NCBI GenBank assembly: GCA_000710935.1
Contig: BAYV01000006.1
Coordinates: 1-64,000, forward strand
Source: Iodidimonas nitroreducens
GTDB lineage: Bacteria; Pseudomonadota; Alphaproteobacteria; Sphingomonadales; Rhodothalassiaceae
Length of the DNA stretch: 64,000 bases
Direction: 5' to 3'
A model generated the notes under the pieces. It did not search any database. It saw only the letters and a list, made by a program, of their open reading frames with translations, and had not been told where the DNA came from. Below are positions 13,335 to 24,981 of the stretch, one piece after another. Each line of letters opens with the position of its first letter. Position 1 is the stretch's first letter. The position numbers and the translations under genes were made by a program.

Positions 13335-15491
13335 TCAGCCTTTGAATTCTGCCAAAAGCAAAGCCGGGGTCAGGATTTGCGATAAAATTTTCGGAGCACT
13401 GCCATCGGCGGGATAAAACAGATAAAGCGGCACCCCATTGCGACCGAAAGCAGCAAGCTCTTTGGCGATCCGATCATCTTTGTTAGTCCAATCGGCTTTC
13501 AACACAGCCACCGAGCCATCCTGCACGGCGCTGATCACATCGGAATCAGCCAAAGCCACCCGTTCATTCACCTTGCAGGTGATGCACCAATCGGCGGTGA
13601 AATACACAAAAACGGGCCGGCCCGCTTCGCGCAATTGATCGCGCTTCTCAGGCGACCATGAGGCGACGGCAAGCTTGTCCTCATAGGAACCGGCCTTAGG
13701 TTGATCTTTTATATCCTTGACCAGGCTTCCGGCCTCAAAACCAATGAAGGTGCCCGAACTGCCGATCATGGGGATTGTCACCAGCGCCGTTAGCCCCAAA
13801 GCCACGATCTGCGCCCTGCGACCACGCCCACCGGCGATACCCCATACCCAGACGATGAAGGCCAAAGCCAAAAGCATGAGCAAGGCATAGCCAAGGGCAT
13901 CGGCCCCATTTTGCCGCCCCAAAACCCATAAAAGCCAGATCACCGTGAGAAAGATCGGGAAAGCGAGAAACTGCCGAAATACCCCCATCCACGGACCGGG
14001 GCGGGGCAAAAGATGCCGCAAAAGCGGAATGAAGGCCACCGCCACATAAGGCAAGGCAAGGCCCAGACCCAGGCTGGTGAAAATGGCCAGCACCACGGGC
14101 GCGGGCTGCACCATGGCAAATCCCAAAGCCGAAGCCATGAAGGGCGCGGTGCAGGGTGTGGCCACGATGGTGGCCAAAACACCCGTGAAAAAGGCGCCGC
14201 TCAAGCCCTTTTTTTCGGTCAAACCCTGACCGATCCCGGCAAAGCGGCTGCTGAATTCAAACATCCCCATCAAATTGAGACCAAGGACAAACAGGATAAG
14301 GGCGATGATCGTGACCACCATGGGCGATTGCAATTGAAAGCCCCAGCCAACCGAAGCCCCGGCCCCGCGCAGGGCCAGAAAAACGACACCCACCGCAAAA
14401 AAGCTACACAAAATCCCAGCCATATAGGCAAGGCCATCATGGCGCGCCGCTTTTTCCCCCGCCCCATGGGCCCGGATCAGCGAAAAAGCCTTGAGCGAGA
14501 GCACGGGAAAAACACATGGCATCAAATTGAGGATGATGCCCCCCAAAAGGGCAAAGGCGATGGCCTCAAACAGACCAATCTGCAAGCCCGCAGCACTGAA
14601 ACCCAAGCCATTCGATTTGGCCACCAAGGTTGTATCAAGGCTAAGGGGGGCCGCAATCTCGAAACCTTCATCAAGGCCATTGTCATTGGTGATGACCAGC
14701 ACACCACGCAAAATCTGATCATGTTCGCCAAGCTGTGGGGCTGATCCCGAACGCGCCACCAAAAGCTGCAAGCCGTCCTCGCCATAAGAAACGGCCTGGG
14801 GCTTGGCATAGCCAAACAGCCCTTCATTCACAGGATAAAAATAGGCCGATTTCACCAGCGCGGCATCGTCTTTCGGCATATCCACATCAAGGGCGAAAGC
14901 AGCATTGCTGATGCGCGCGCTGGCCTGCCACGGGCTTTGATGGGGCAAGGCGGCCCGGGCTTTGGCAAAGAGCGCCGCCATGCCGGGGGCAACCGTGCCA
15001 GAACCCGGGATCATTTGAAAAGCGAGATCGCCATATTCAGGGATACACACATCGGCGCATACCAGCCATTCCGCCGAAAGGGCCAGATCGATCGGCTGAT
15101 CCGGGATCGCAGCGGGCGGGGTGAGCCTGACCAAAAGGCTTTGGGGCGCTTCATAGCCATAATTCATCAAAGGCCCAACCGGGATACGATGAGGCACCGG
15201 ATAAAGAGGCGCATCCGCCGTCCAGCCTTCGGGCAAGGACCAGTTGAGGCTGGGCGCCTTGCCGCTATCGCCGTAATTTTCCCAATAGGTGTGCCAGCCT
15301 TCCGATGGCGTGAAGCGCAGGGCCAGCCATAAAGGCTCACCGGCAGCAACCGTGGTTTTTTCGGCAAAAATTTCAAGCCGGGTCTGGGGATTATCGACCG
15401 CAGCCAAAGGCGTTTGTGCCTGCACGGACTGACCCATCGCCATCAGCAACAGCGAGACGATGAAGAGTCGCGATTTAAAGAGCCAGTGCAT
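13335..15491 (-). CDS. Protein-disulfide reductase, DsbD/ScsB-like
   Basis: Inner-membrane electron transporter that carries reducing power from cytoplasmic thioredoxin to periplasmic thiols. Order in the 718-residue protein: signal peptide (1-25), periplasmic alpha domain with Cys145 and Cys149 (VCADVC), eight-helix DsbD core (about 300-560) with Cys326 in LNLMPCVFP and a second cysteine in VATPCTAPF, and a C-terminal thioredoxin domain with Cys636 and Cys639 (DWCITC). The CADVC form of the N-terminal domain is that of ScsB-type rather than classical DsbD. The periplasmic redoxin gene follows in the same orientation and is a candidate substrate. Confidence 0.9.
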   Translation of the reverse strand: MHWLFKSRLFIVSLLLMAMGQSVQAQTPLAAVDNPQTRLEIFAEKTTVAAGEPLWLALRFTPSEGWHTYWENYGDSGKAPSLNWSLPEGWTADAPLYPVPHRIPVGPLMNYGYEAPQSLLVRLTPPAAIPDQPIDLALSAEWLVCADVCIPEYGDLAFQMIPGSGTVAPGMAALFAKARAALPHQSPWQASARISNAAFALDVDMPKDDAALVKSAYFYPVNEGLFGYAKPQAVSYGEDGLQLLVARSGSAPQLGEHDQILRGVLVITNDNGLDEGFEIAAPLSLDTTLVAKSNGLGFSAAGLQIGLFEAIAFALLGGIILNLMPCVFPVLSLKAFSLIRAHGAGEKAARHDGLAYMAGILCSFFAVGVVFLALRGAGASVGWGFQLQSPMVVTIIALILFVLGLNLMGMFEFSSRFAGIGQGLTEKKGLSGAFFTGVLATIVATPCTAPFMASALGFAMVQPAPVVLAIFTSLGLGLALPYVAVAFIPLLRHLLPRPGPWMGVFRQFLAFPIFLTVIWLLWVLGRQNGADALGYALLMLLALAFIVWVWGIAGGRGRRAQIVALGLTALVTIPMIGSSGTFIGFEAGSLVKDIKDQPKAGSYEDKLAVASWSPEKRDQLREAGRPVFVYFTADWCITCKVNERVALADSDVISAVQDGSVAVLKADWTNKDDRIAKELAAFGRNGVPLYLFYPADGSAPKILSQILTPALLLAEFKG

Positions 15492-15905
15492 CCTGTCGCC
15501 TTCTTTTGCCGATCACGGTCCCTGTGCTTAGCATAAGCTATGCTCTGGAAAAATCACGACTGTGTTAACGCTGGGGAAAGGCCGCGGATACCCCTGCGAC
15601 ATTTCCGCCCAGCCCCTGACAAGAAGGATTCCGCCTTGATGCCTAAAATGACGAAAGTTGAGAGACTCCCTCAATCGTCACCCCGGCCCCCGAGCCGGGG
15701 CCGGTACTCGCATGAAGCGCGCTCAAGGCTGGGGCTACTCGTCTGCCGCCACTCAATCGTCATCCCGGGCTTGACCCGGGATCCATCTCGTGAAGCGCGA
15801 AGCATGGGAAAGAGTGGACCCCGGGTCAAGCCCGGGGTGACGAAAGACGGAGTCCCCGCCCGGGGTGACGAAAGATGAGACGAGATGACGAAAAACAAGA
15901 GACGG
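15492..15905. other. Non-coding gap with repeats
   Basis: A 414-bp interval between dsbD-like and the DHS-like gene. The half nearest 15906 is filled by palindromic repeats (15676-15875). The remainder (15492-15675) would contain the dsbD-like promoter; no conserved element was recognised and short open frames here show no protein-like features. Confidence 0.7.
15676..15875. repeat. Cluster of CGTCA...cccgggg palindromic repeats
   Basis: Main unit: arms at 15758-15786 and 15814-15842 (29 nt each) are near-perfect inverted copies (cgtcatcccgggcttgaccc and its complement) around a short loop. A partial unit at 15676-15703 (cgtcaccccggcccccgagc) precedes it, and the end piece cccggggtgacgaaaga is repeated again at 15859-15875. 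Elements of this form are dispersed in many alphaproteobacterial genomes and lie between genes; the other copy here is at 10510-10552. Confidence 0.85.
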
Positions 15906-16970
15906 CTATTGCCCATCCACGGCGTCGAACAACCGGGCGAAATGGCGCGCCTCGCGCCCCTTCCAAACGCCCCGATGATAGGCATCGGAGGCAATCAAGG
16001 GCACCACGGTGGTGGCTTCGGCAAAAACCATCTGTTCATAAGCGGTTTCCACCTTGCCCCAGCTTGATGCTTCTTTCAGCGTTGAGGATGAACAGGCCCC
16101 ATCGCGCACATCGGCCACGGTGATCTGGATCGCATATTTGTGCATTTCCGCTTCAACGCCCAGAATTTCCGCACAAACCACCGTATCCTGCACGAAATTC
16201 TTGGGCACGCCGCCGCCCACCATCAAAAGCCCGGTGCGGCCGGCTTTGATCTTGATATCGGTCAGTTCCCGGAAATCGGCAATGGAATCGATGGTCAGAT
16301 AAGGCGCGTTCGCCTTCATCCGGTTCACCTGATGCTTCACAAGGCCAAAGCCCGCCGAGCTATCGGTGAAAGCGGGGCAGAAGATCGGCACATCATGATC
16401 AAAACAGGTTTCGATCAGGCTGCCTTTCTTTTTGGCATTGCTTTTCAACCAACGGCCCATTTCACGGATGAAGGCGCGGCTGGAATAGGCCCGTGATGGC
16501 AGGCTATCAGCGATTTCCAGCAACACATGATCACAGGCCTGCAATTCTTCCTCATCGATGAAGGTGTCATAAATCCGATCGATATAAAGATCGCGCAGAT
16601 CATTATCATCGAGGGTGGAACTGCCCTGATAATGGCGGAAGCCAAGGGCCTCGAAAAAATCCATATCGATGATCGATGCGCCGGTGGCCACGATGGCATC
16701 CACCATCCCCGCCGCCACCAGATCGCGATAAACATGCATACAGCCGCCTGCCGAGGTCGATCCGGCAAGGGTGAGGATCACCGAGCAATCACGATCCGCC
16801 AGCATCCGATTATAAATCTCGGCAGCCCGGGCGGTATCGCGTGAGGTGAACGACATCTTGCCCATCGCCTCCACCAAAGGGCGGGCGTCATATTGGGTGA
16901 TATCGATATGTTCCACCGGCTTTGAAAGCAATTCGGCCTTGCGATTGGTGTGTGCGGTCTGGTCAGCCAT
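15906..16970 (-). CDS. Deoxyhypusine synthase family protein (probable polyamine enzyme)
   Basis: Homologue of eukaryotic/archaeal deoxyhypusine synthase, which transfers an aminobutyl group from spermidine using NAD. The 354-residue protein keeps the key lysine, Lys306 in EASSWGKVET (equivalent to the imine-forming lysine in SWGK of the eukaryotic enzyme), and the NAD-binding stretches LTLAGSTSAGGCMHVYRDLV and ATGASIIDMDFFEALG. Bacteria have no eIF5A, so a small-molecule acceptor such as putrescine (giving homospermidine or spermidine) is inferred. This is supported by its position 18 bp behind an ornithine decarboxylase gene, in one operon. An AGGA ribosome-binding site sits 6 nt before the ATG. 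Confidence 0.85.
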   Translation of the reverse strand: MADQTAHTNRKAELLSKPVEHIDITQYDARPLVEAMGKMSFTSRDTARAAEIYNRMLADRDCSVILTLAGSTSAGGCMHVYRDLVAAGMVDAIVATGASIIDMDFFEALGFRHYQGSSTLDDNDLRDLYIDRIYDTFIDEEELQACDHVLLEIADSLPSRAYSSRAFIREMGRWLKSNAKKKGSLIETCFDHDVPIFCPAFTDSSAGFGLVKHQVNRMKANAPYLTIDSIADFRELTDIKIKAGRTGLLMVGGGVPKNFVQDTVVCAEILGVEAEMHKYAIQITVADVRDGACSSSTLKEASSWGKVETAYEQMVFAEATTVVPLIASDAYHRGVWKGREARHFARLFDAVDGQ

Positions 16971-16988
16971 CTTCAGTCCTCTCGATCT

Positions 16989-18233
16989 TTATTGTGCATC
17001 GGCCATGGCAGCATCATGCTTCACAGGCAGGGGAACGACATTATTAGTCATGGCTTCCCGTGGCGCCACGGCAACGGTGAGATCGGAATGAAAGCCATTG
17101 AATTTGGTGCGCATCGACATGCCATAAGCCCCGAGATTGGCCACTTCGATCCAATCGCCTTCGGCCATATCGGCAGGCAGCATGAACGGACCCTTCATCA
17201 CATCCATGCTATCACATGTAGGGCCATAAAAAATGAATGCCTGCTCATTGTCACAAGCCGCCCGGCGCAGATCAACCCGCCGCACAGGATAACGCCAGCC
17301 AATGGCCCCGGCATCATATAAAGCCCCAAAGGTGCCATCATTGAGATAAAGCGCATTGCCCTTACGCAATTCCACCTTCACCAGCACTGATCCGCCATCA
17401 CCCACCAGCGCCCGGCCCGGCTCACATAAAAGCGGCAGGCCCAGAAAGCCATAATCGGCGACAGCCTGATCGATCACGCCCATGAAAGCATCCAAAGCCG
17501 GAGGCTCCATCCCCGGATAAGCAACCGGAAAACCACCGCCCACATCAAGGAGATCAATCGAGATTTCCGCTTCATCGAGCAAGGCCCGCACGGCAGCAAT
17601 GGCTTTGCGGTAGCTATGGGGGTTCATGCATTGCGAACCCACATGAAAGCTCACGGCGAGATTGGCGGAAACCGCCCGCGCCGCCTGCAAAAGGTCCACA
17701 GCCGCCGCACCATCCACCCCAAATTTGCCAGACAGATCAAGGGCCGCATCGCCTTTGGGCAGGCCAAGCCGAATGAAAAGGCCCAGATCATCGGCACCAT
17801 TGGTTTCTTCGATGATTTTTTCCAATTCCGCCAGGCTATCAATGGCGAAATCGCGAACCCCGGCCAGATAGGCATAGCGAATGGCCCGGCGGCTTTTCAC
17901 CGGGTGCATGAAATAAAGCTTTGCCGTGGCCGATATCCGGCGCACCGCATCGATTTCCTCTATAGAGGCCACATCGAACGCAGTGATCCCCGCATGAACA
18001 AGGGTTTCCAGCACCGCAGGCGTGGGATTGCATTTCACCGCATACATCACCGTGCCGGAAAAGCGGCTCAAAAAGGCGTGCGCTGCGCGTTCCATGCTTT
18101 GACGATACAGCACGTGAATGGGCTGATCATCGGCAATGGTGGCCACCACATCCTCAATCGAATTGAAAACAGGAATATCGCGATCGACGCCGGCATCAAC
18201 AGATGGATGCGCAAAGGCATAAAGTGCAGTCAT
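16989..18233 (-). CDS. Ornithine decarboxylase-like PLP enzyme (fold type III)
   Basis: Alanine-racemase-fold decarboxylase making putrescine from ornithine (or cadaverine from lysine). The PLP lysine is in MYAVKCNPTPAVL; other signatures are VSFHVGSQCMNP, LDVGGGFPVAYPG and CEPGRALVGDGG. The C-terminal FYGPTCDSMDV carries the catalytic cysteine and the GPTCDSxD form of ornithine-type decarboxylases. Two in-frame ATGs exist: 18239 is only 2 nt from AAGGA, while 18233 is 8 nt away, so 18233 (414 aa) is preferred. Upstream is a structured leader with its own small ORF, resembling the speF RNA motif known ahead of this gene in Alphaproteobacteria. Downstream is the DHS-like gene. Confidence 0.9.
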   Translation of the reverse strand: MTALYAFAHPSVDAGVDRDIPVFNSIEDVVATIADDQPIHVLYRQSMERAAHAFLSRFSGTVMYAVKCNPTPAVLETLVHAGITAFDVASIEEIDAVRRISATAKLYFMHPVKSRRAIRYAYLAGVRDFAIDSLAELEKIIEETNGADDLGLFIRLGLPKGDAALDLSGKFGVDGAAAVDLLQAARAVSANLAVSFHVGSQCMNPHSYRKAIAAVRALLDEAEISIDLLDVGGGFPVAYPGMEPPALDAFMGVIDQAVADYGFLGLPLLCEPGRALVGDGGSVLVKVELRKGNALYLNDGTFGALYDAGAIGWRYPVRRVDLRRAACDNEQAFIFYGPTCDSMDVMKGPFMLPADMAEGDWIEVANLGAYGMSMRTKFNGFHSDLTVAVAPREAMTNNVVPLPVKHDAAMADAQ

Positions 18234-18247
18234 GTTCATGGTCCTTA

Positions 18248-18366
18248 GGTGAACGAGGCCAGACCCATCTTGCCCGGCAAGAGGATCAAAAGTTCACCGG
18301 CCGCCATCCCTTGCGCATCATACAGCCTGGGAGACGTGGGGCACGGCAATGCTTCCCGCAAGGGGA
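18248..18366 (-). promoter_or_regulatory. speF-like structured RNA leader
   Basis: Between the leader ORF and the decarboxylase the transcript can fold into stacked hairpins. GGUGAAC and GUUCACC (18298-18292 with 18254-18248) enclose UCUUGC-cgg-GCAAGA (18282-18268), placed right before the AAGGA ribosome-binding site. A longer-range pairing joins the segment just after the leader stop (18365-18357) to 18315-18307 (CCCUUGCG with CGCAAGGG). The speF motif, described upstream of ornithine decarboxylase genes in Alphaproteobacteria, occupies this position; identity with that motif is inferred. Confidence 0.6.
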
Positions 18367-18368
18367 GG

Positions 18369-18497
18369 CTATGCGAGCATCGGACTATGCTTGTCGAGAA
18401 CCATGAAGCGCCAGCGCCAATAGCCCCGGTCGCTGGCAATAATTTTAAGCCCTTTGGAAGATATTCCGCCGGGGAAGCACACATCACTGGAGGCCAT
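18369..18497 (-). CDS. Leader peptide upstream of ornithine decarboxylase (42 aa)
   Basis: A 42-codon ORF starting MASSDVCF, preceded by GGGAG with 7-8 nt spacing (aaagggagtcgcca before the ATG), and ending in TAG. The middle reads KGLKIIASDRGYWRWRF, which is rich in aromatic and basic residues. It lies about 130 nt before the decarboxylase, with RNA hairpins in between, so its translation is expected to influence downstream expression. Enterobacteria have a comparable arrest peptide, SpeFL, which senses ornithine; the sequences are not alike, so similarity of mechanism is inferred. It could also be a small protein with an independent role. Confidence 0.6.
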   Translation of the reverse strand: MASSDVCFPGGISSKGLKIIASDRGYWRWRFMVLDKHSPMLA

Positions 18498-18892
18498 TGG
18501 CGACTCCCTTTATCAATCAGTGTCGGCTCATTGAAAAAGGCCGCCGACCCAACCAACAAAAAAAGCACGCATCGTTACGTAACCAGTACATAAGGGCCAG
18601 GGGCACGTGCGCGTACGTGACGCTCATATGACTGAACATTGCCCATGATTCAAGGATGAAATGATGCCTTTTGGCTCTCAACCCCAAAAAATTTATAAAG
18701 CACAATTAAAACAATGCGTTGTAAATTTTCACTCTGAGCCCTTTTCGGCCATTTTTATGGCCTCGCCGGTTCATGTCCCCAACATCGGCCCCGGCTCTCT
18801 TCTCGATCTGAGAAAAGTGCTTTAGACTATGAGGTGAATAAGACCGTTCTGACCGCGAAATCTCAAAGAATCGCCATAACACAAGGACAATC
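18498..18892. other. Divergent promoter region (leader transcript / asparaginase)
   Basis: This interval should hold the promoter of the polyamine unit (minus strand) and of the asparaginase-family gene (plus strand). It contains a perfect 10-bp palindrome GTTACGTAAC (18574-18583), a CACGTgcgcgtACGTG imperfect palindrome (about 18604-18619), and the inverted repeat listed at 18706-18732. No gene was found in it. Confidence 0.5.
18706..18732 (+). promoter_or_regulatory. Inverted-repeat operator candidate, copy 1
   Basis: TTAAAAC-aatgc-GTTGTAA followed by a TTTTCAC tail. The arms are identical to those of the copy at 49573-49598 while the five central bases differ. Both copies lie upstream of genes for secreted hydrolases in the same orientation (161 and 94 nt from the start codons), suggesting a shared regulator. 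Confidence 0.4.
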
Positions 18893-19984
18893 ATGATGAT
18901 CCCCGCGCCCGTCTCATCTCGCCATTCCCAAACGAAACGAACCGGACGCACCGCCCTTTGTCGTCTGCCGCTCGGGCTTTTGGGCGGCATCATGCTGAGC
19001 GCGCTGGCCATCAGCCCCCAAAGCCGTGCGCAGGAGGCGACAAAGGATGAAAGCAGCTATGCCATCGCCCTTCATGGCGGGGCCGGCACCATCACCCGCG
19101 CTTCCATGACGGCAGAGTCTGAAGCCGCCTATCGCGCCGCCCTTGGCGAAGCGCTGATTGCCGGGCAAAGCGTGCTCAAAAGCGGCGGCACAGCCATTGA
19201 TGCGGTGGCCGCGAGCATTCGCATCATGGAAGACAGCCCCCTGTTCAATGCCGGGAAAGGCGCGGTATTCACCTATGATGGCCGCAATGAGCTGGATGCC
19301 GCGATCATGGATGGCCGCACATTGAAGGCCGGGGCGGTCACCGGCGTGACCCGGATCAAAAATCCCATCCTGCTGGCACGGGCGGTGATGGGTCAATCGC
19401 GGCATGTGATGCTTTCGGGTTCGGGGGCCGAACATTTTGCCCGCATCCAAGGCATCGACCTCGTTTCCCCCACATGGTTTTTCACCGACCGGCGTTATCA
19501 GCAGCTTTTATCCATCCAAAATCATGAAAAAGGCGCCATGCAGCTTCATTTTGATGGCGATCATCAATTCGGTACCGTGGGCGTGGTGGCTTTGGATCAG
19601 GCGGGCAATCTGGCGGCGGGCACCTCTACCGGCGGGCTGACCAATAAAGAATGGGGCCGCATCGGCGATAGCCCCATCATCGGCGCAGGCACCTATGCCG
19701 ATAATAAAAGCTGCGCCGTATCGGCTACCGGCACCGGGGAATATTTCATGCGCGCCACCGCCGCCCGCACGATTTGCGCCCTGATCGAATATAAGGGCTA
19801 TGATGTGCAAAAAGCCGCCGATGAAGTGATCCATCAAAAGATTGCCGGGCTGGGCGGCGATGGCGGGGTGATTGCCTTGTCGCACAGCGGCGAGATTGCT
19901 TTCAGCTTCAATACCGAAGGCATGTATCGGGCAAAATTGAGCAGCCAAAACCCCACCCCCCTCATCCTCATTTACAAGGATTGA
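18893..19984 (+). CDS. Isoaspartyl peptidase / L-asparaginase family protein, exported
   Basis: Ntn-hydrolase of the plant-type asparaginase family, which cleaves itself and then hydrolyses isoaspartyl peptides or asparagine. An N-terminal signal (hydrophobic residues ~25-46, PLGLLGGIMLSALAISPQSRAQ) indicates export. The mature part starts AIALHGGAGTI, includes FNAGKGAVFTYDGRNELDAAIMDG, and the self-cleaving threonine lies in QFGTVGVVALD; substrate-binding GTSTGGLTNKEWGRIGDSPIIGAG follows. An AAGGA site precedes the ATGATG start. It is convergent to the NAGGN operon; whether it acts on amide dipeptides is unknown. Confidence 0.9.
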   Translation: MMIPAPVSSRHSQTKRTGRTALCRLPLGLLGGIMLSALAISPQSRAQEATKDESSYAIALHGGAGTITRASMTAESEAAYRAALGEALIAGQSVLKSGGTAIDAVAASIRIMEDSPLFNAGKGAVFTYDGRNELDAAIMDGRTLKAGAVTGVTRIKNPILLARAVMGQSRHVMLSGSGAEHFARIQGIDLVSPTWFFTDRRYQQLLSIQNHEKGAMQLHFDGDHQFGTVGVVALDQAGNLAAGTSTGGLTNKEWGRIGDSPIIGAGTYADNKSCAVSATGTGEYFMRATAARTICALIEYKGYDVQKAADEVIHQKIAGLGGDGGVIALSHSGEIAFSFNTEGMYRAKLSSQNPTPLILIYKD

Positions 19985-20033
19985 GGATGAGGGGACTGAG
20001 AACTGAAGCCCTTTTCATGCCAGACGGGGACGG

Positions 20034-21191
20034 CTAGTCATCGGATGGAAAGCCGTCTGCCGCTTCTTTTTTGGAAGGGGTGATGGGTTGATGGGTAAAG
20101 CCCTTCAATCCTGAAAGCTGATCCTTGTCGCGTTCGATATGCACTTCGCTTTGCAGATAAACCCCCACAAGCTCGGCAATCGAGCGCAAGGCATGGCTAT
20201 GGATTCGTTCCCACCCATGGCTGGCATCGATCCCAAAGGTGATGAGCGCGGTTCGGATATCATTGCCCGCCTCAAGGGCCGAAGCGCTATCCGAGCGATA
20301 ATAGCGAAAAATATCGCGCTGATGGCGGATATCATGCTGTTCGCATAAGGCCAGCAGCTTTTGGGTGAGGTGATAATCGAAAGGCCCGCTTTGATCGGCC
20401 ATGGCAATGGTCACGCCAAATTCCCGGCTGTTCTGGCCCGGTGCCGTGGTGCCATTATCGATGCTGACCATCGAGGCGATATCGCCATGGAGAATGGTGG
20501 AGGCACCGATCCCCACCTCTTCGGCGATGGAGAAAAGAAAATAGCTGTCCACCGGCAGATCGCATGGATCATCCACCAAAGCCTTGATCGCCGCAAACAT
20601 GCTGGCAACCCCGGCTTTATCATCCAGATGACGGGAATTGATGAAGCCATTGACCATTTCCGGCATGGGATCGATGGCCACGAAATCGCCGATGGCAATT
20701 CCCGCCCGCATCAGATCGTTTTTGGAAAAGCACAGGCCATCCACCCGTACTTCCAGATTGCTCCAGGCCGAAGGCTGCTGATCGATTTCTTCGTTAAACG
20801 TATGGCCCGATGCCTTGAGCGGCAGGATTGTGCCGCGCCATGATCCCTTGGTGGTAAAGATATTGCACCGCGCGCCTTCGGCAAATCGCGCCGACCAATG
20901 GCCGATGGGAACGATTTCAAGGCGGCCATTGTCTTTCAGCCCCTTGACCTGTGCTCCCAGGGTATCGAGATGGGCGATGATGGCTCGCCCGGGGTGTTTT
21001 GCCTTGCCCTTGATCCATGCCCGAATGGCCCCGCGCCGGGTCAATTCATATTCAAGGCCCAGACTTTTGAGCTCCTGCGCGCAGAACCGGACGATCTCAT
21101 CCGTATAGCCCGTGGGGCTGGGGATCGCCAGCAGGCGCAATAAGATCTGTTCCAGATAGCTGATGTCGATGGTTGGTCTTTTGATCGTCAT
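20034..21191 (-). CDS. M42-family metallopeptidase of the NAGGN osmoprotectant system
   Basis: Dinuclear-metal aminopeptidase fold (385 aa) of the M42 subfamily that is consistently encoded with the N-acetylglutaminylglutamine amide (NAGGN) enzymes. Metal-ligand segments are visible: IAHLDTLGAQV, SRHLDDKAGVA, IAEEVGIGAS and SIDNGTTAP. It presumably takes part in turnover of the dipeptide osmolyte, but this has not been shown for the family as far as I know. The start overlaps the end of the synthetase gene by four bases (ATGA), so it is the third gene of a coupled operon. Confidence 0.88.
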   Translation of the reverse strand: MTIKRPTIDISYLEQILLRLLAIPSPTGYTDEIVRFCAQELKSLGLEYELTRRGAIRAWIKGKAKHPGRAIIAHLDTLGAQVKGLKDNGRLEIVPIGHWSARFAEGARCNIFTTKGSWRGTILPLKASGHTFNEEIDQQPSAWSNLEVRVDGLCFSKNDLMRAGIAIGDFVAIDPMPEMVNGFINSRHLDDKAGVASMFAAIKALVDDPCDLPVDSYFLFSIAEEVGIGASTILHGDIASMVSIDNGTTAPGQNSREFGVTIAMADQSGPFDYHLTQKLLALCEQHDIRHQRDIFRYYRSDSASALEAGNDIRTALITFGIDASHGWERIHSHALRSIAELVGVYLQSEVHIERDKDQLSGLKGFTHQPITPSKKEAADGFPSDD

Positions 21192-23044
21192 GATCCTCCG
21201 CCGATGTCTTTGCTCAGTTTTAAATCCGTAGGCAATGAATGGGGAAACAACAGATCGATGAACCGCTCGGCTGTGGGCTGCGGTTCATGATTGGCAAGGC
21301 CCGGGCGCTCATTCGCCTCGATCACGATATAATCGGGCTCGCTTGGTGATTTCACGATCATATCCACACCCACCACCGGAATATCGATGGTTTTAGCACA
21401 GGTGATGGCCGCTTGACACAGATGCGGATGCAGCCGATCCGTCACATCATGCAAGGTGCCCCCGGTATGCAGATTAGCCGTTTTCCGCACAAAAAGCTGT
21501 TTTTTTGCGGGCAGGATAGTGGACAGTTCAAAGCCCCCATTGCGGATGGTGCGTTCGGTTTCCTGATCGATGGGGATGCGCGATTCACCATTCGTGGCCG
21601 CCATGCGCCGACGGCTTTGGGCCTTGATCAGCGCTTCGATCGTGCTTGATCCATCACCGATGATGGCTGCCGGGCGGCGGATGGCCGCAGCCACCAGCTT
21701 AAAGCCGATAACGATGATCCGCAGATCGATGCCATCAAAATATTCTTCCAATAGCACATGATCATCTACCCGCCGGGCGGCCTCCACCGCCTGTTCGAGA
21801 TGCGCCGCATCAGTGATATTGACACTGACCCCCCGGCCCTGCTCCCCATGCCGGGGCTTAACCACGATGGCCCCATGCTCGTGCAAAAAATCGGCATTGC
21901 GATCAGGGTTTAAAGCCGCCTGCTGCTGGGCCGGCACCCGTATATTGGCCGCCCCCAAAAGCCGCCTTGTGACCATTTTATCCGCGCAGCGGCTCATGGC
22001 GATGGCACTGGTCAATTCGGTCAGGGATTCCCGGCAGATCACGGATCGCCCGCCAAAAGAGAGCCGAAAATAGCCATTTTCAGCATCCAGAACATCCACA
22101 TGAATGCCCCGCCTGCGGGCTTCATTAACGATGATCAGAGCATAAGGATTGAAATTGGCATCAAAAGACGGACCGGCAAACAGCTTTTCATTGATCGAAT
22201 TCTTGTTTTTGAGGGCAAAGAACGGCAGGCGCTGAAAGCCCAGCTTTTCATAAAGTGCAATCGCCTGTTCATTATCGTGCATCACCGATAAATCCATATA
22301 GGCATTGCCCCGGGCCTGAAAATGTTCGGCCAGGCGCCGCACCAAAGCTTCGCCGATACCGGGATAGGGGCTTTGGGGATCCACCGCCAAACACCAGAGT
22401 GACGCCCCGCGCTCAGGATCGTGATAAGCCTGATAATGATTGACCCCGGTGACCGTTCCCACCAATGCCCCGCTTTCATCATCCTGGGCCACATAATAGG
22501 TCAGGCTGCGGCTATCGCGGCGATCCCAGAAAAAGCTGGGATCCACCTGCACCATATTGCGCGCCGCATAGATGCGATTGATTTCGGCAATATCAGAACG
22601 ATGCGACAAGCGCCGGATATGAAAGCCGCGAAAACGCCGCACCGCAGGCTGATAGGTATGGAGATCAAGGCGATAGGTATGGGATGGATCAAGGAAAAGC
22701 TCTTGAGGGGCTTTGGAAAGCGCCACATGGGGATCGCGCAGATAAAAAGCGATATCGCGCTGTTGGGGCATTTCCTGGCGCAGGGCTTCCACCACATCAT
22801 CAAGGCGATCAAAGGTCTGGGCGAAATATAACCGCCCCCAGCCGCAATCGATAAAAGCATCATGGGCCATGGTTTTGTGCTGGGGCTTCAAGGATTGCGC
22901 GCGCATTTTATCAAGGCGATATTGCCGATCAGGCCGCGCCGACCCGGGCTTGCGCCCCGGCGAAGCGGATGGCTCCGCTCTGCGCTTCCCTGTCTGCTCC
23001 CCATTTGCTGGGCCATCTTTTTGATCATCGGGCGCATCACTCAT
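21188..23044 (-). CDS. ngg: N-acetylglutaminylglutamine synthetase
   Basis: Two-domain enzyme forming the dipeptide backbone of N-acetylglutaminylglutamine amide. Residues about 75-300 contain a GNAT acetyltransferase domain (ESGALVGTVTGVNHYQ, then NEQAIALYEKLGFQRLPFF), and the C-terminal half is an ATP-grasp ligase (GAIVVKPRHGEQGRGVSVNI, VIEANERPGLANHE). The ATG at 23044 (MSDAPDDQ) is chosen, 5 nt after the amidotransferase stop; an open frame reaching 23098 would overlap that gene. The 618-residue length is close to known homologues. It is the middle gene of the NAGGN operon. Confidence 0.92.
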   Translation of the reverse strand: MSDAPDDQKDGPANGEQTGKRRAEPSASPGRKPGSARPDRQYRLDKMRAQSLKPQHKTMAHDAFIDCGWGRLYFAQTFDRLDDVVEALRQEMPQQRDIAFYLRDPHVALSKAPQELFLDPSHTYRLDLHTYQPAVRRFRGFHIRRLSHRSDIAEINRIYAARNMVQVDPSFFWDRRDSRSLTYYVAQDDESGALVGTVTGVNHYQAYHDPERGASLWCLAVDPQSPYPGIGEALVRRLAEHFQARGNAYMDLSVMHDNEQAIALYEKLGFQRLPFFALKNKNSINEKLFAGPSFDANFNPYALIIVNEARRRGIHVDVLDAENGYFRLSFGGRSVICRESLTELTSAIAMSRCADKMVTRRLLGAANIRVPAQQQAALNPDRNADFLHEHGAIVVKPRHGEQGRGVSVNITDAAHLEQAVEAARRVDDHVLLEEYFDGIDLRIIVIGFKLVAAAIRRPAAIIGDGSSTIEALIKAQSRRRMAATNGESRIPIDQETERTIRNGGFELSTILPAKKQLFVRKTANLHTGGTLHDVTDRLHPHLCQAAITCAKTIDIPVVGVDMIVKSPSEPDYIVIEANERPGLANHEPQPTAERFIDLLFPHSLPTDLKLSKDIGGGS

Positions 23045-23049
23045 GGCGA

Positions 23050-24855
23050 TCAAAGCCCCTGTTGTTGCAGCCAATATTCCAGCAAAGCCACCTGCCACAG
23101 CTTAGACCCGCGCAAGGGGGTGATATGATCCGCCGGATGCGCCAGAAGCTCATCCACCTTAGCCCGATCAAATAATCCGCGCGCCCGGGCTTGGGGAGCA
23201 TTGAGAATATCGCGCACCAGATCATGATAGGGCCCTTCTATATATTTAAGGGCAGGCACCGGAAAATAACCCTTTGGCCGATCAATCACTTCATGGGGAA
23301 TGATTTTCCGCGCCGCTTCCTTCAGAATATATTTGCCGCCGTCCCGTACTTTCAATTCAGCGGGAATGCGCGCCGCCAATTCCACCAGTGCATGATCCAG
23401 AAACGGCACCCGGGCTTCCAAACCCCAGGCCATGGTCATATTATCCACCCTTTTCACCGGATCATCCACCAGCATGATCTCGGTATCGATCCGCAGGGCC
23501 TTATCGATGGGCCGATCCGCCCCGCTTTTGGCGAAATGCCCTTCGATAAAGCTTTTGGCATGATCATCACCGCGATAATCGGGGCCCAGTATTTTTTGCA
23601 TTTCATGATGATCGCGATCACAAAACACCCGCATATAATCCGCCACCCCATCGCGAGACTCCATCATCGGCGGATACCAGTGATAACCGGCAAAAATCTC
23701 ATCCGCACCCTGCCCGCTTTGCACCACCTTCACATGCTGCGAGACCTTTTCGCTCAGCAGGTAAAAGCCGATGGCATCATGGCTGACCATGGGTTCCGAC
23801 ATCGCCGCCACGCAGCGACCCAATGCGGGCAAGGCACGCGTGGAATCGATGAAAAGCTGATGATGATCGGTGGCAAAATGCCGGGCGATCAGATCGGAAT
23901 ACTGAAATTCATCCCCCCGTTCATTCCCCACGGTTTCAAAGCCGATGGAAAAAGTCGCCAGCCCCGATTGACCGGCTTCCGCCAAAAGCCCCACCACCAA
24001 TGAGCTATCAAGGCCGCCGGAAAGCAAAACCCCCACCGGCACATCGGCAACAAGGCGGCGCTGCACTGATTGGCGCAAAACCTCGATCAGTTTGTCTTCC
24101 CAATCATTTTGGCGATAAGCCCGTTCATCCTCATGGGGGCCAAATTGGACTGACCAGTAAACAGTCTCCGTTTCCCGGCCTTCGGCATCGATTTCAAGCA
24201 AAGTGGCGGGGGGCAATTTCCGCACCCCCTTCAAAATCGTGCGGGGTGGCGGCACAATCGCATGAAAGCTCATATAATGGGCAAGGGCGATGGGATCGAT
24301 ATCGCAATCCACATCACCGCCCGCCAATAAAGCAGGCAGGCTGGAGGCAAATCGCAACCGCCGCCCCCCCATACCGGCGCCCCCATCGGGATCGGTTTGC
24401 TGCCATGACAGATATAAAGGCTTGATCCCCTGACGATCCCGGCCAAACAAAACCCGGCCATCATCCCGGTGCCAGATGCAAAAGGCAAACATGCCATAAA
24501 GCCGGGTGACGAAATTCTTCCCCCAATGATGATAGGCCTTCAGGATTACCTCGGTATCGCCATGGGAAAAGAATTGATAGCCCTTGGCGATCAATTCGGC
24601 GCGCAATTCGGGGTAATTATAGATACAGCCATTGAAAACAATCGCCAGCCCCAGCGCAGAATCGACCATGGGCTGTTGGGCGGCCTCGCTCAGATCGATG
24701 ATTTTCAGCCGACGATGGCCAAAAGCCACCCGACCTTGGGAAAACAGGCCATGGCCATCGGGCCCGCGCGGGGCCAGCGCCCGGATCATCCGCTCAACGG
24801 CCGCAGTCTCAGCCCTTTGATGATGAAAACTGATCTCGCCTGCAATGCCACACAT
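23050..24855 (-). CDS. N-acetylglutaminylglutamine amidotransferase (asparagine-synthetase-like)
   Basis: Class II glutamine amidotransferase fused to an ATP-PPi synthetase domain, converting the dipeptide to its amide in osmoadaptation. The start is set at the ATG at 24855 so that Cys2 (MCGIAGEISF) becomes the N-terminal nucleophile; an upstream ATG at 24876 would bury it. The synthetase domain has the P-loop VLLSGGLDSSLVVGL near residue 265 and FLDHALVELAARIP toward the C-terminus. At 601 residues it fits the asnO branch of Sinorhizobium/Pseudomonas NAGGN loci. First gene of the operon with ngg and the M42 peptidase. Confidence 0.92.
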   Translation of the reverse strand: MCGIAGEISFHHQRAETAAVERMIRALAPRGPDGHGLFSQGRVAFGHRRLKIIDLSEAAQQPMVDSALGLAIVFNGCIYNYPELRAELIAKGYQFFSHGDTEVILKAYHHWGKNFVTRLYGMFAFCIWHRDDGRVLFGRDRQGIKPLYLSWQQTDPDGGAGMGGRRLRFASSLPALLAGGDVDCDIDPIALAHYMSFHAIVPPPRTILKGVRKLPPATLLEIDAEGRETETVYWSVQFGPHEDERAYRQNDWEDKLIEVLRQSVQRRLVADVPVGVLLSGGLDSSLVVGLLAEAGQSGLATFSIGFETVGNERGDEFQYSDLIARHFATDHHQLFIDSTRALPALGRCVAAMSEPMVSHDAIGFYLLSEKVSQHVKVVQSGQGADEIFAGYHWYPPMMESRDGVADYMRVFCDRDHHEMQKILGPDYRGDDHAKSFIEGHFAKSGADRPIDKALRIDTEIMLVDDPVKRVDNMTMAWGLEARVPFLDHALVELAARIPAELKVRDGGKYILKEAARKIIPHEVIDRPKGYFPVPALKYIEGPYHDLVRDILNAPQARARGLFDRAKVDELLAHPADHITPLRGSKLWQVALLEYWLQQQGL

Positions 24856-24981
24856 AGGCGCTTCATGCTCCTTCATTCATGATCATCGGATCATGCATCA
24901 CAGCATAAAAGACGGCGCATTGGCCAGTTTGTTCGCGATAAAAGGCAGGTGATCCCCATTTGAACAGGATAGATAAGGCTT

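Follow-up and report, generated by a model that had tools for sequence, protein, structure and literature searches.

A leader ORF under purifying selection and a speF-like RNA element upstream of an ornithine decarboxylase-like gene of Iodidimonas nitroreducens

The ornithine decarboxylase (ODC)-like gene of Iodidimonas nitroreducens is preceded by a short ORF, which raises the question of whether this ORF encodes a peptide that matters as such and, if so, how the peptide may bear on polyamine synthesis. The window, i.e. the whole stretch of DNA analysed here (64,000 nucleotides of contig BAYV01000006.1), had been the subject of an earlier note, in which the ORF was described as a leader of 42 codons preceded by a Shine-Dalgarno (SD) sequence, unlike the arrest peptide SpeFL and possibly an independently evolved ornithine- or polyamine-sensing nascent peptide. 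The ORF proved to be real; it lies on the minus strand directly ahead of the decarboxylase gene and is conserved in all six family genomes in which this gene was found. The features of this operon are as follows.

18369-18497, minus strand: leader ORF, 42 aa (open reading frame, alignment of relatives, dN/dS)
18240-18368, minus strand: spacer from the leader stop to the decarboxylase, with predicted hairpins
16989-18239, minus strand: ornithine decarboxylase-like PLP enzyme, inferred substrate (PF02784, 6e-42; PF00278, 3e-8)
15906-16970, minus strand: next gene, deoxyhypusine-synthase-family enzyme (best NCBIfam match PRK02492, above cut-off)

Coding constraint and distribution of the leader ORF

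The ORF (18497-18369, ATG start, 42 codons followed by TAG) encodes the peptide MASSDVCFPGGISSKGLKIIASDRGYWRWRFMVLDKHSPMLA, and its ATG is located six bases downstream of the end of the SD sequence AAAGGGAG (18511-18504). The peptide matched no Pfam family at E 0.1 and none in NCBIfam. The product of the downstream gene belongs to the Orn/DAP/Arg family of PLP decarboxylases, its best solved relatives being lysine/ornithine decarboxylases. Translation of this gene probably begins at the second ATG (18233) and not the first (18239), since the proteins of relatives start with MTA and just two bases separate the first ATG from AAGGA. The deoxyhypusine-synthase-family gene that follows is a probable operon partner in polyamine synthesis. 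The distance from the leader stop to the likely ODC start is 131-140 nt in four family members; no convincing common fold of the spacer was found among the family members compared, and a scan of the leader region for a sigma-70 promoter found none.

A peptide search of 40 relatives gave four clear matches outside the window (G002, G001, G005 and G003; E 3e-8 or better), all four with the same decarboxylase directly downstream. When a five-row profile was run against 196 genomes of the order, five strong matches were obtained (E 3e-23 or better, own genome counted), together with weak matches in G004 and G012, both upstream of an ODC gene; in 385 genomes of the class the sole clear match was the own genome, the next best having an E of 0.001. 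The remaining loci drawn from the two scans lacked such an ODC, and no convincing copy of the leader away from an ODC gene was found in these 385 class and 196 order genomes. The family of the window (f1) was represented by seven genomes (G000-G006), six of which have the ODC at E 1e-60, and the leader is present in 6/6 of these. In G003 it is kept upstream of the ODC gene though the gene on its other side differs. Two ODC matches elsewhere (G437:C1:529579-530673 and G301:C2:75547-76626) have one in-frame TGA each and may be pseudogenes or errors.

The leaders of five family members share M1, P9-G10-G11, D23-R24, W27-R28, R30 and V33-L34-D35 as invariant residues, and that of the sixth, G004, deviates at several of them. 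The C-terminal block of the four closest members reads [YF]-W-R-[WF]-R-F-x-V-L-D-[KR]-H-S-P, with the stop two or three residues later. We grouped as type A these leaders and the same-place leaders of families f4 (L096, L098) and f7 (G012); the f4 leaders are only 15-29% identical to the window peptide and their grouping therefore rests on position, but the f4 and f7 leaders are likely to be diverged relatives of the window leader. In the nine-row type-A alignment, M1 and R24 do not vary; eight members have R and one has K at position 28, six have R at position 30, and eight of the nine have S-P close to the C-terminus, two to five residues ahead of the stop.

The leader ORF is under purifying selection as a peptide. 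The amino acid conservation with synonymous changes that the earlier note proposed to look for in relatives was found among four of the six family members (the two most divergent ones being omitted), whose six pairs, compared over 39 codons, have dN/dS of 0.11-0.22 (dN 0.15-0.30, dS 0.70-1.81). The 25-41 substitutions per pair result in 8-15 amino acid changes, compared to 15.7-23.2 expected if the substitutions are placed at random, and in each pair 0 or 1 of 5000 shuffles had as few. All nine aligned type-A leaders are open, which is weaker evidence than the dN/dS test because the members were found as open frames.

The SD-holding hairpin and related elements in Alphaproteobacteria

The earlier note had placed the leader ahead of the hairpins; a strong hairpin upstream of the ORF, which holds the leader SD, had been missed. 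Nor is the ORF a stand-alone leader: a structured RNA that resembles the alphaproteobacterial speF leader has the ORF at its 3' end. This region contains the following features.

18602-18611, minus strand: CGCACGUGCC block, conserved, 5' end of the element
18571-18583, minus strand: GUUACGUAACGAU, which corresponds to GYAACGACG, a nearly invariant motif of the element
18500-18570, minus strand: long hairpin sequestering the leader SD (5' arm 18570-18543, 3' arm 18527-18500; fold and covariation)
18558-18565, minus strand: CUUUUUUU tract pairing with the SD
18554-18539, minus strand: terminator-like stem and T run inside the leader hairpin
18504-18511, minus strand: SD AAAGGGAG of the leader ORF, within the 3' arm of the hairpin

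The 89-nt segment 18583-18495, which runs to the start codon, has a minimum free energy of -30.6 kcal/mol (z -2.69; 3/200 shuffles were as stable) and folds into a single long hairpin through pairing between CUUUUUUUGUUGGUUGG and CUGAUUGAUAAAGGGAG, which includes the SD. Two overlapping terminator-like sites (0.8 expected) are located inside the hairpin on the leader strand.

Related elements were collected from 199 ODC loci (59 closest matches, 60 further and 80 named), which yielded 49 elements with the order CGCACGUGCC, a stretch of variable length, GYAACGACG, a U-tract and a hairpin with the SD. Seven duplicates (L210, L219, L221, L234, L238, L261, L262) were removed, as were L177 (spurious) and L251 (block near the ODC start) before alignment and the near-identical L097 and L151 later; L130, L148 and L149 were placed and L099, L102 and L108 added by hand. 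The motif CACGTGYC was found in 4 of the 60 further ODC loci of the class, L177 being the one judged spurious, and L099 is included among the 49 without a CACGTGYC match. A separate SD-preceded ORF of 8-56 codons follows the hairpin directly in 41/49 element loci, the ODC ORF itself starts there in 4/49, and neither was found by rule in the other 4/49, although in one of these, L126, the ODC begins five bases further (special rules were used for L159, L161 and L240). The element RNA can thus work without a leader, as the ODC ORF starts at the element in four loci. An ODC ORF at or within a few bases of the start codon of the element was noted in L125, L126, L148, L235, L237, L317, L322, L324 and L335.

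RNAalifold on all 49 elements gave no structure, and folds were therefore tested on two sub-alignments, A6 (17 relatives, 15 from the order and two from another family of the class) and A7 (20 loci), which were picked by eye for alignability and together hold 37/49 elements; because 12 were omitted, the pair counts are valid for these subsets only. Covariation supports a conserved hairpin in which the leader SD is base-paired. In A6, 81.9% of the cells are paired, compared to 73.6% in shuffles and 36-58% in slid controls, a figure biased by the structure having been taken from the window sequence. The cells with changes on both sides number 49 (shuffles 20.6, slid 19-31), the covariation score is 0.382 (shuffles 0.253, slid 0.12-0.21), and CG, UG and UA are all seen at the pair of the first G of the SD (columns 25/83). 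Other measures were less favourable: pairs changed on both sides (13/27) were equalled by two slid versions, pair types were not above shuffles (152 of 500), columns 28/80, next to the SD, are unpaired in 10/17 sequences, and most positions of the basal stem are unpaired in 5-7 of the 17 sequences. In A7, the SD-sequestering fold is paired in 81.2% of cells vs 78.9 in shuffles, with several pairs mostly unformed and nine pairs with both-side changes vs 4.6 in shuffles. An alternative A7 fold, consisting of a GACG/CGUC hairpin and the upper stem, is paired in 96.7%; its GACG/CGUC hairpin competes with the SD pairing for one strand, but is not itself evidence since its pairs hardly vary.

Covariance models R1 and R2 were built from A6 and A7, respectively, and run with Infernal's stricter filters, which may lose weak matches. 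R1 matched the window, which belongs to its training set, at 18495-18583 with 87.4 bits, and gave one match in each of 17/196 order genomes, all 17 preceding a window-type ODC; as 15 of the 17 are training loci (the exceptions being G021 and G427), this shows specificity and not spread. R2 gave 39 matches in 31/190 class genomes, and the downstream gene was checked for the 30 matches that were made loci. Ten of these precede a window-type ODC and 14 precede a second ODC subfamily, whose ORF starts at the element in 4/14; R2 had been trained without any locus of this second subfamily or of homospermidine synthase. The second-subfamily ODCs are 32-36% identical to that of the window and 53-61% to that of the Rfam speF locus L030. 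One more element, L308 (G194:C13, 51625-51702, minus strand), precedes a homospermidine synthase gene (PDB matches E 5e-150), which suggests a polyamine regulon. Another R2 locus, L325 (G109:C253:3105-3178), has a downstream ORF that starts at the element and a glutamine amidotransferase-like body, for which a polyamine-related role is only a guess. Two loci run into contig ends and two look false (L333, L336). Similar elements thus recur upstream of polyamine genes across Alphaproteobacteria. Neither R1 nor R2 found the element in G003, though the leader is present there.

The leader peptides at element loci vary by clade. Most Kordiimonas-like leaders end in FLPPEMYDYFSAVLELSHSPAH or similar (the leader of L111 is the same as that of L234, from Kordiimonas gwangyangensis), and leaders of five loci (L224, L226, L231, L240, L253), three of them labelled Acetobacteraceae or Asaia, end in ..RIA. 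Coding constraint was seen in two of three pairs of Kordiimonas-like leaders (14 and 5 of 5000 shuffles), was weak in the third (177), was borderline in the L134/L137 pair (234 of 5000) and was not found in three pairs of the 15-aa Acetobacteraceae-like leaders, which differ by 2, 8 and 8 substitutions. Many of the other leaders at element loci have just 8-19 aa, which is short for a tunnel-sensing peptide. By eye, the ends of window-type and Kordiimonas-type leaders share an aromatic block, V-L and S-P; a profile-profile comparison of the two (A4 vs A5) found no link (probability 0.1%). The independent origin proposed in the earlier note agrees with the absence of detectable similarity to SpeFL and between the two clade types, which at 40 residues is weak evidence.

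Relation to speF, odc1 and SpeFL

The gene context of the window is the same as that of the speF element (Rfam RF00518, Corbino et al. 2005). RF00518 did not match the window in a cmscan of 18100-18900 with E up to 1, the Rfam scan of the leader region gave a chance snoRNA match only, and no relevant Rfam family was found in the loci of 14 relatives, four f6-family loci among these. In 190 genomes, RF00518 had 11 matches in 10 genomes, four of which were above cut-off, and the six best loci (L028-L033) were taken for comparison. Each of the six contains GCAACGACG and a U-rich tract, together with a hairpin whose 3' side bears RAAGAGG. Four also contain CACGTGCC; the other two have only a CACGTG hexamer, farther upstream. 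In L028-L033, the RF00518 matches begin downstream of the conserved stretch of GCAACGACG and U-rich tract, which the model seems to miss. The motif order agrees with the description by Corbino et al., in which the 5' end is conserved and is accompanied by a stem that carries a large insertion and by a long bulged stem-loop of ~80 nt. Since the six Rfam speF loci share the element order, the leader region of the window is probably related to the speF leader reported in 2005, from which it would have diverged; it bears a leader ORF and escapes the Rfam model. The CUUUUUUU tract is likely to be the counterpart of the CUUUUUNG tract adjoining the Rfam speF matches. The ODCs downstream of the RF00518 loci differ from that of the window, to which they are only 32-36% identical. 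Inspection by eye of the six loci found no AUG at SD spacing after the hairpin and no short ORF kept across the speF loci, and a search of the text of Corbino et al. yielded nothing on a leader peptide or ORF tied to speF.

The probable kinship between the window and speF rests mainly on order, motifs and gene context, with partial support from the covariance models. An R2 match (G066:C1:3161279-3161357) overlaps an RF00518 match (3161313-3161440), and R2 scored 26.1 bits on L031 (E 2e-4), 17.5 on L030, 16.5 on L033 and 13.2 on L028, with no match on L029 and L032 at E 1. On the window R2 scored 15.1 bits (E 0.17), compared to 20.9 bits for a match inside an ODC gene (L112) that was judged false in the same search. 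R1 scored 13.2 bits on L033 (E 0.52).

The odc1 motif (uORF-25-1; Brewer et al. 2021, PMC8632094) is described as an ODC leader of Alphaproteobacteria whose RBS lies in the right shoulder of a stem. It has two overlapping UUG starts and a uORF that is always 11 aa long and located directly at the ODC start, and it was tested in E. coli with the Sphingomonas echinoides sequence. Like the window leader, it combines an ODC leader, an RBS in a stem and a conserved uORF, but in the window the leader begins with AUG and stops about 130 nt before the ODC, whereas odc1 has UUG-NN-UUG at the ODC start; with this different layout, the window leader is not the published odc1 uORF. In family f6 of the window's order, TTGnnTTG is found at the ODC start in 9/9 loci, the uORF being 11 aa long in six of them and 9 aa in the other three; the RNA element was absent from these nine loci, which have odc1-like starts instead.

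SpeFL was also rejected as the identity of the window leader, as the earlier note had held: the Pfam scan at E 0.1 was empty and hence without a match to PF10940, and the HIRR(T) core is missing. The decarboxylase associated with SpeFL presumably belongs to a fold family different from that of the window's enzyme. Both leaders are short SD-preceded ORFs ahead of an ornithine decarboxylase, but the SD of the window leader, unlike that of SpeFL, sits in a conserved hairpin. According to two reports (PMC6386406, PMC8429421), the gammaproteobacterial SpeFL/ORF34 (PF10940/DUF2618) is a short SD-preceded ORF in the long structured leader of ornithine decarboxylase, at which pausing or termination arrest controls expression, and orf34/SpeFL is described as working through Rho, RBS unmasking and pausing (PMC6386406). 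TnaC and other ligand-dependent arrest peptides resemble the window leader in Trp, Asp and Pro near the stop, which is a resemblance only. No paper apparently describing the window leader was found; subscription journals and preprints lay outside the search, so that novelty is unproven.

Possible modes of regulation

Regulation of the ODC gene in cis by the leader region is likely. With moderate confidence, we consider that the leader peptide acts in cis in the 5' leader of the ODC operon and, by pausing the ribosome, sets ODC expression. The RNA element would limit how often the leader is translated, the C-terminal block, on sensing ornithine or a polyamine, would make the ribosome pause at the stop codon or close to it, and the paused ribosome would alter the folding of the 130-nt spacer or the access of Rho to it and so set decarboxylase expression. 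Candidate directions are induction by ornithine and repression by polyamine, and candidate means are Rho, a terminator or masking of the ODC SD. Such sensing by the nascent peptide, as suggested in the earlier note, is plausible, and the data point to a previously undescribed switch in which a leader peptide would control polyamine synthesis in Alphaproteobacteria. Counted for this explanation were the coding constraint, the linkage to ODC, the SD hairpin, the constraint on the second leader type, the precedent of orf34/SpeFL, and G003, where the leader persists although no element can be recognised, which favours the peptide as such having a role. Counted against it were the mixed covariation, the dissimilar leaders of other clades, the leaders of 8-19 aa, the three Acetobacteraceae-like pairs lacking coding constraint, the four loci of 49 in which the ODC ORF itself starts at the element, the terminator-like site in the hairpin and the lack of a common spacer fold.

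A doubtful though serious alternative is that the RNA element is the sensor, riboswitch- or thermometer-like and possibly with an intrinsic terminator in the hairpin, and the leader a translated reporter whose peptide sequence is of minor importance and whose translation rate governs Rho access or spacer folding. The sequestered SD, with covariation in A6 and more weakly in A7, would fit such a sensor, as would the elements that directly precede ODC ORFs (4/49 loci; 4/14 in the second subfamily) or the homospermidine synthase gene, the terminator-like site and the competition of the A7 GACG/CGUC hairpin with the SD pairing, the latter hardly varying and not being evidence in itself. It leaves the amino acid constraint on the window-type leader unexplained, however, and is at odds with G003, which has the leader and no recognisable element; a passage of Corbino et al. 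on the tumefaciens speF RNA also speaks against it.

Classical attenuation by charged tRNA, in which a shortage of arginine, from which ornithine is made, would slow ribosomes at the Arg (or Trp) codons of the leader, appears improbable. The invariant R24 (9/9 type-A leaders) and the Arg found at position 28 in eight and at position 30 in six would suit it, and tandem Arg codons slow ribosomes in Salmonella orf34 according to PMC6386406, but R24, R28 and R30 are not tandem, the conserved block of the second leader type contains no Arg and many other residues are conserved too. That the ORF encodes a small functional protein acting in trans and merely located in the operon is a very slim prospect: the coding constraint is full-length and includes the N-terminal P-G-G, which would suit such a protein, but no clear copy occurs away from ODC in the class and order scans, the SD is fixed in the leader hairpin and other clades have dissimilar short ORFs in the same place. 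A chance ORF without function is hardly credible, since short ORFs are indeed common (114 of 30 aa or more overlap 14000-24000) but the dN/dS of 0.11-0.22 and the shuffles contradict it.

Returning to the leader peptide as regulator, we tentatively propose, as a possibility somewhat short of an even chance, that a class-wide RNA platform governs two ODC subfamilies and homospermidine synthase, and that each clade has mounted its own leader peptide on the start codon presented by this RNA, i.e. DRGYWRWRFxVLDxHSP in the window type, FLPPEMYDYFSAVLELSHSP in the Kordiimonas relatives and ..RIA in the Acetobacteraceae-like loci, constraint having been shown for the first two only. If so, arrest peptides that respond to one metabolite would have evolved repeatedly on a shared RNA scaffold, and the clade-specific peptides would form a natural set for learning how nascent chains evolve small-molecule sensing. 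Polyamine sensing via speF-type leaders in Alphaproteobacteria has been a question since 2005, when the speF RNA was reported and no ligand was found (Corbino et al. 2005). A leader peptide whose RBS lies inside a speF-type RNA is a possible reason why the naked RNA bound no ligand, as the sensor could be the translating ribosome. The 89-nt hairpin region, the 42 codons and the 130-nt spacer provide a concrete construct.

On its other side, the leader region adjoins a divergent gene of the asparaginase-2/isoaspartyl peptidase family (18893-19984, plus strand), and a gene of similar type is divergent from the leader in the relative G002 (L003). Further on, 20034-24876 (minus strand) holds genes for the osmoprotectant N-acetylglutaminylglutamine (NAGGN), namely an M42 peptidase (TIGR03106), a synthetase (TIGR03103) and an amidotransferase (TIGR03104), all of which exceed the cut-off.
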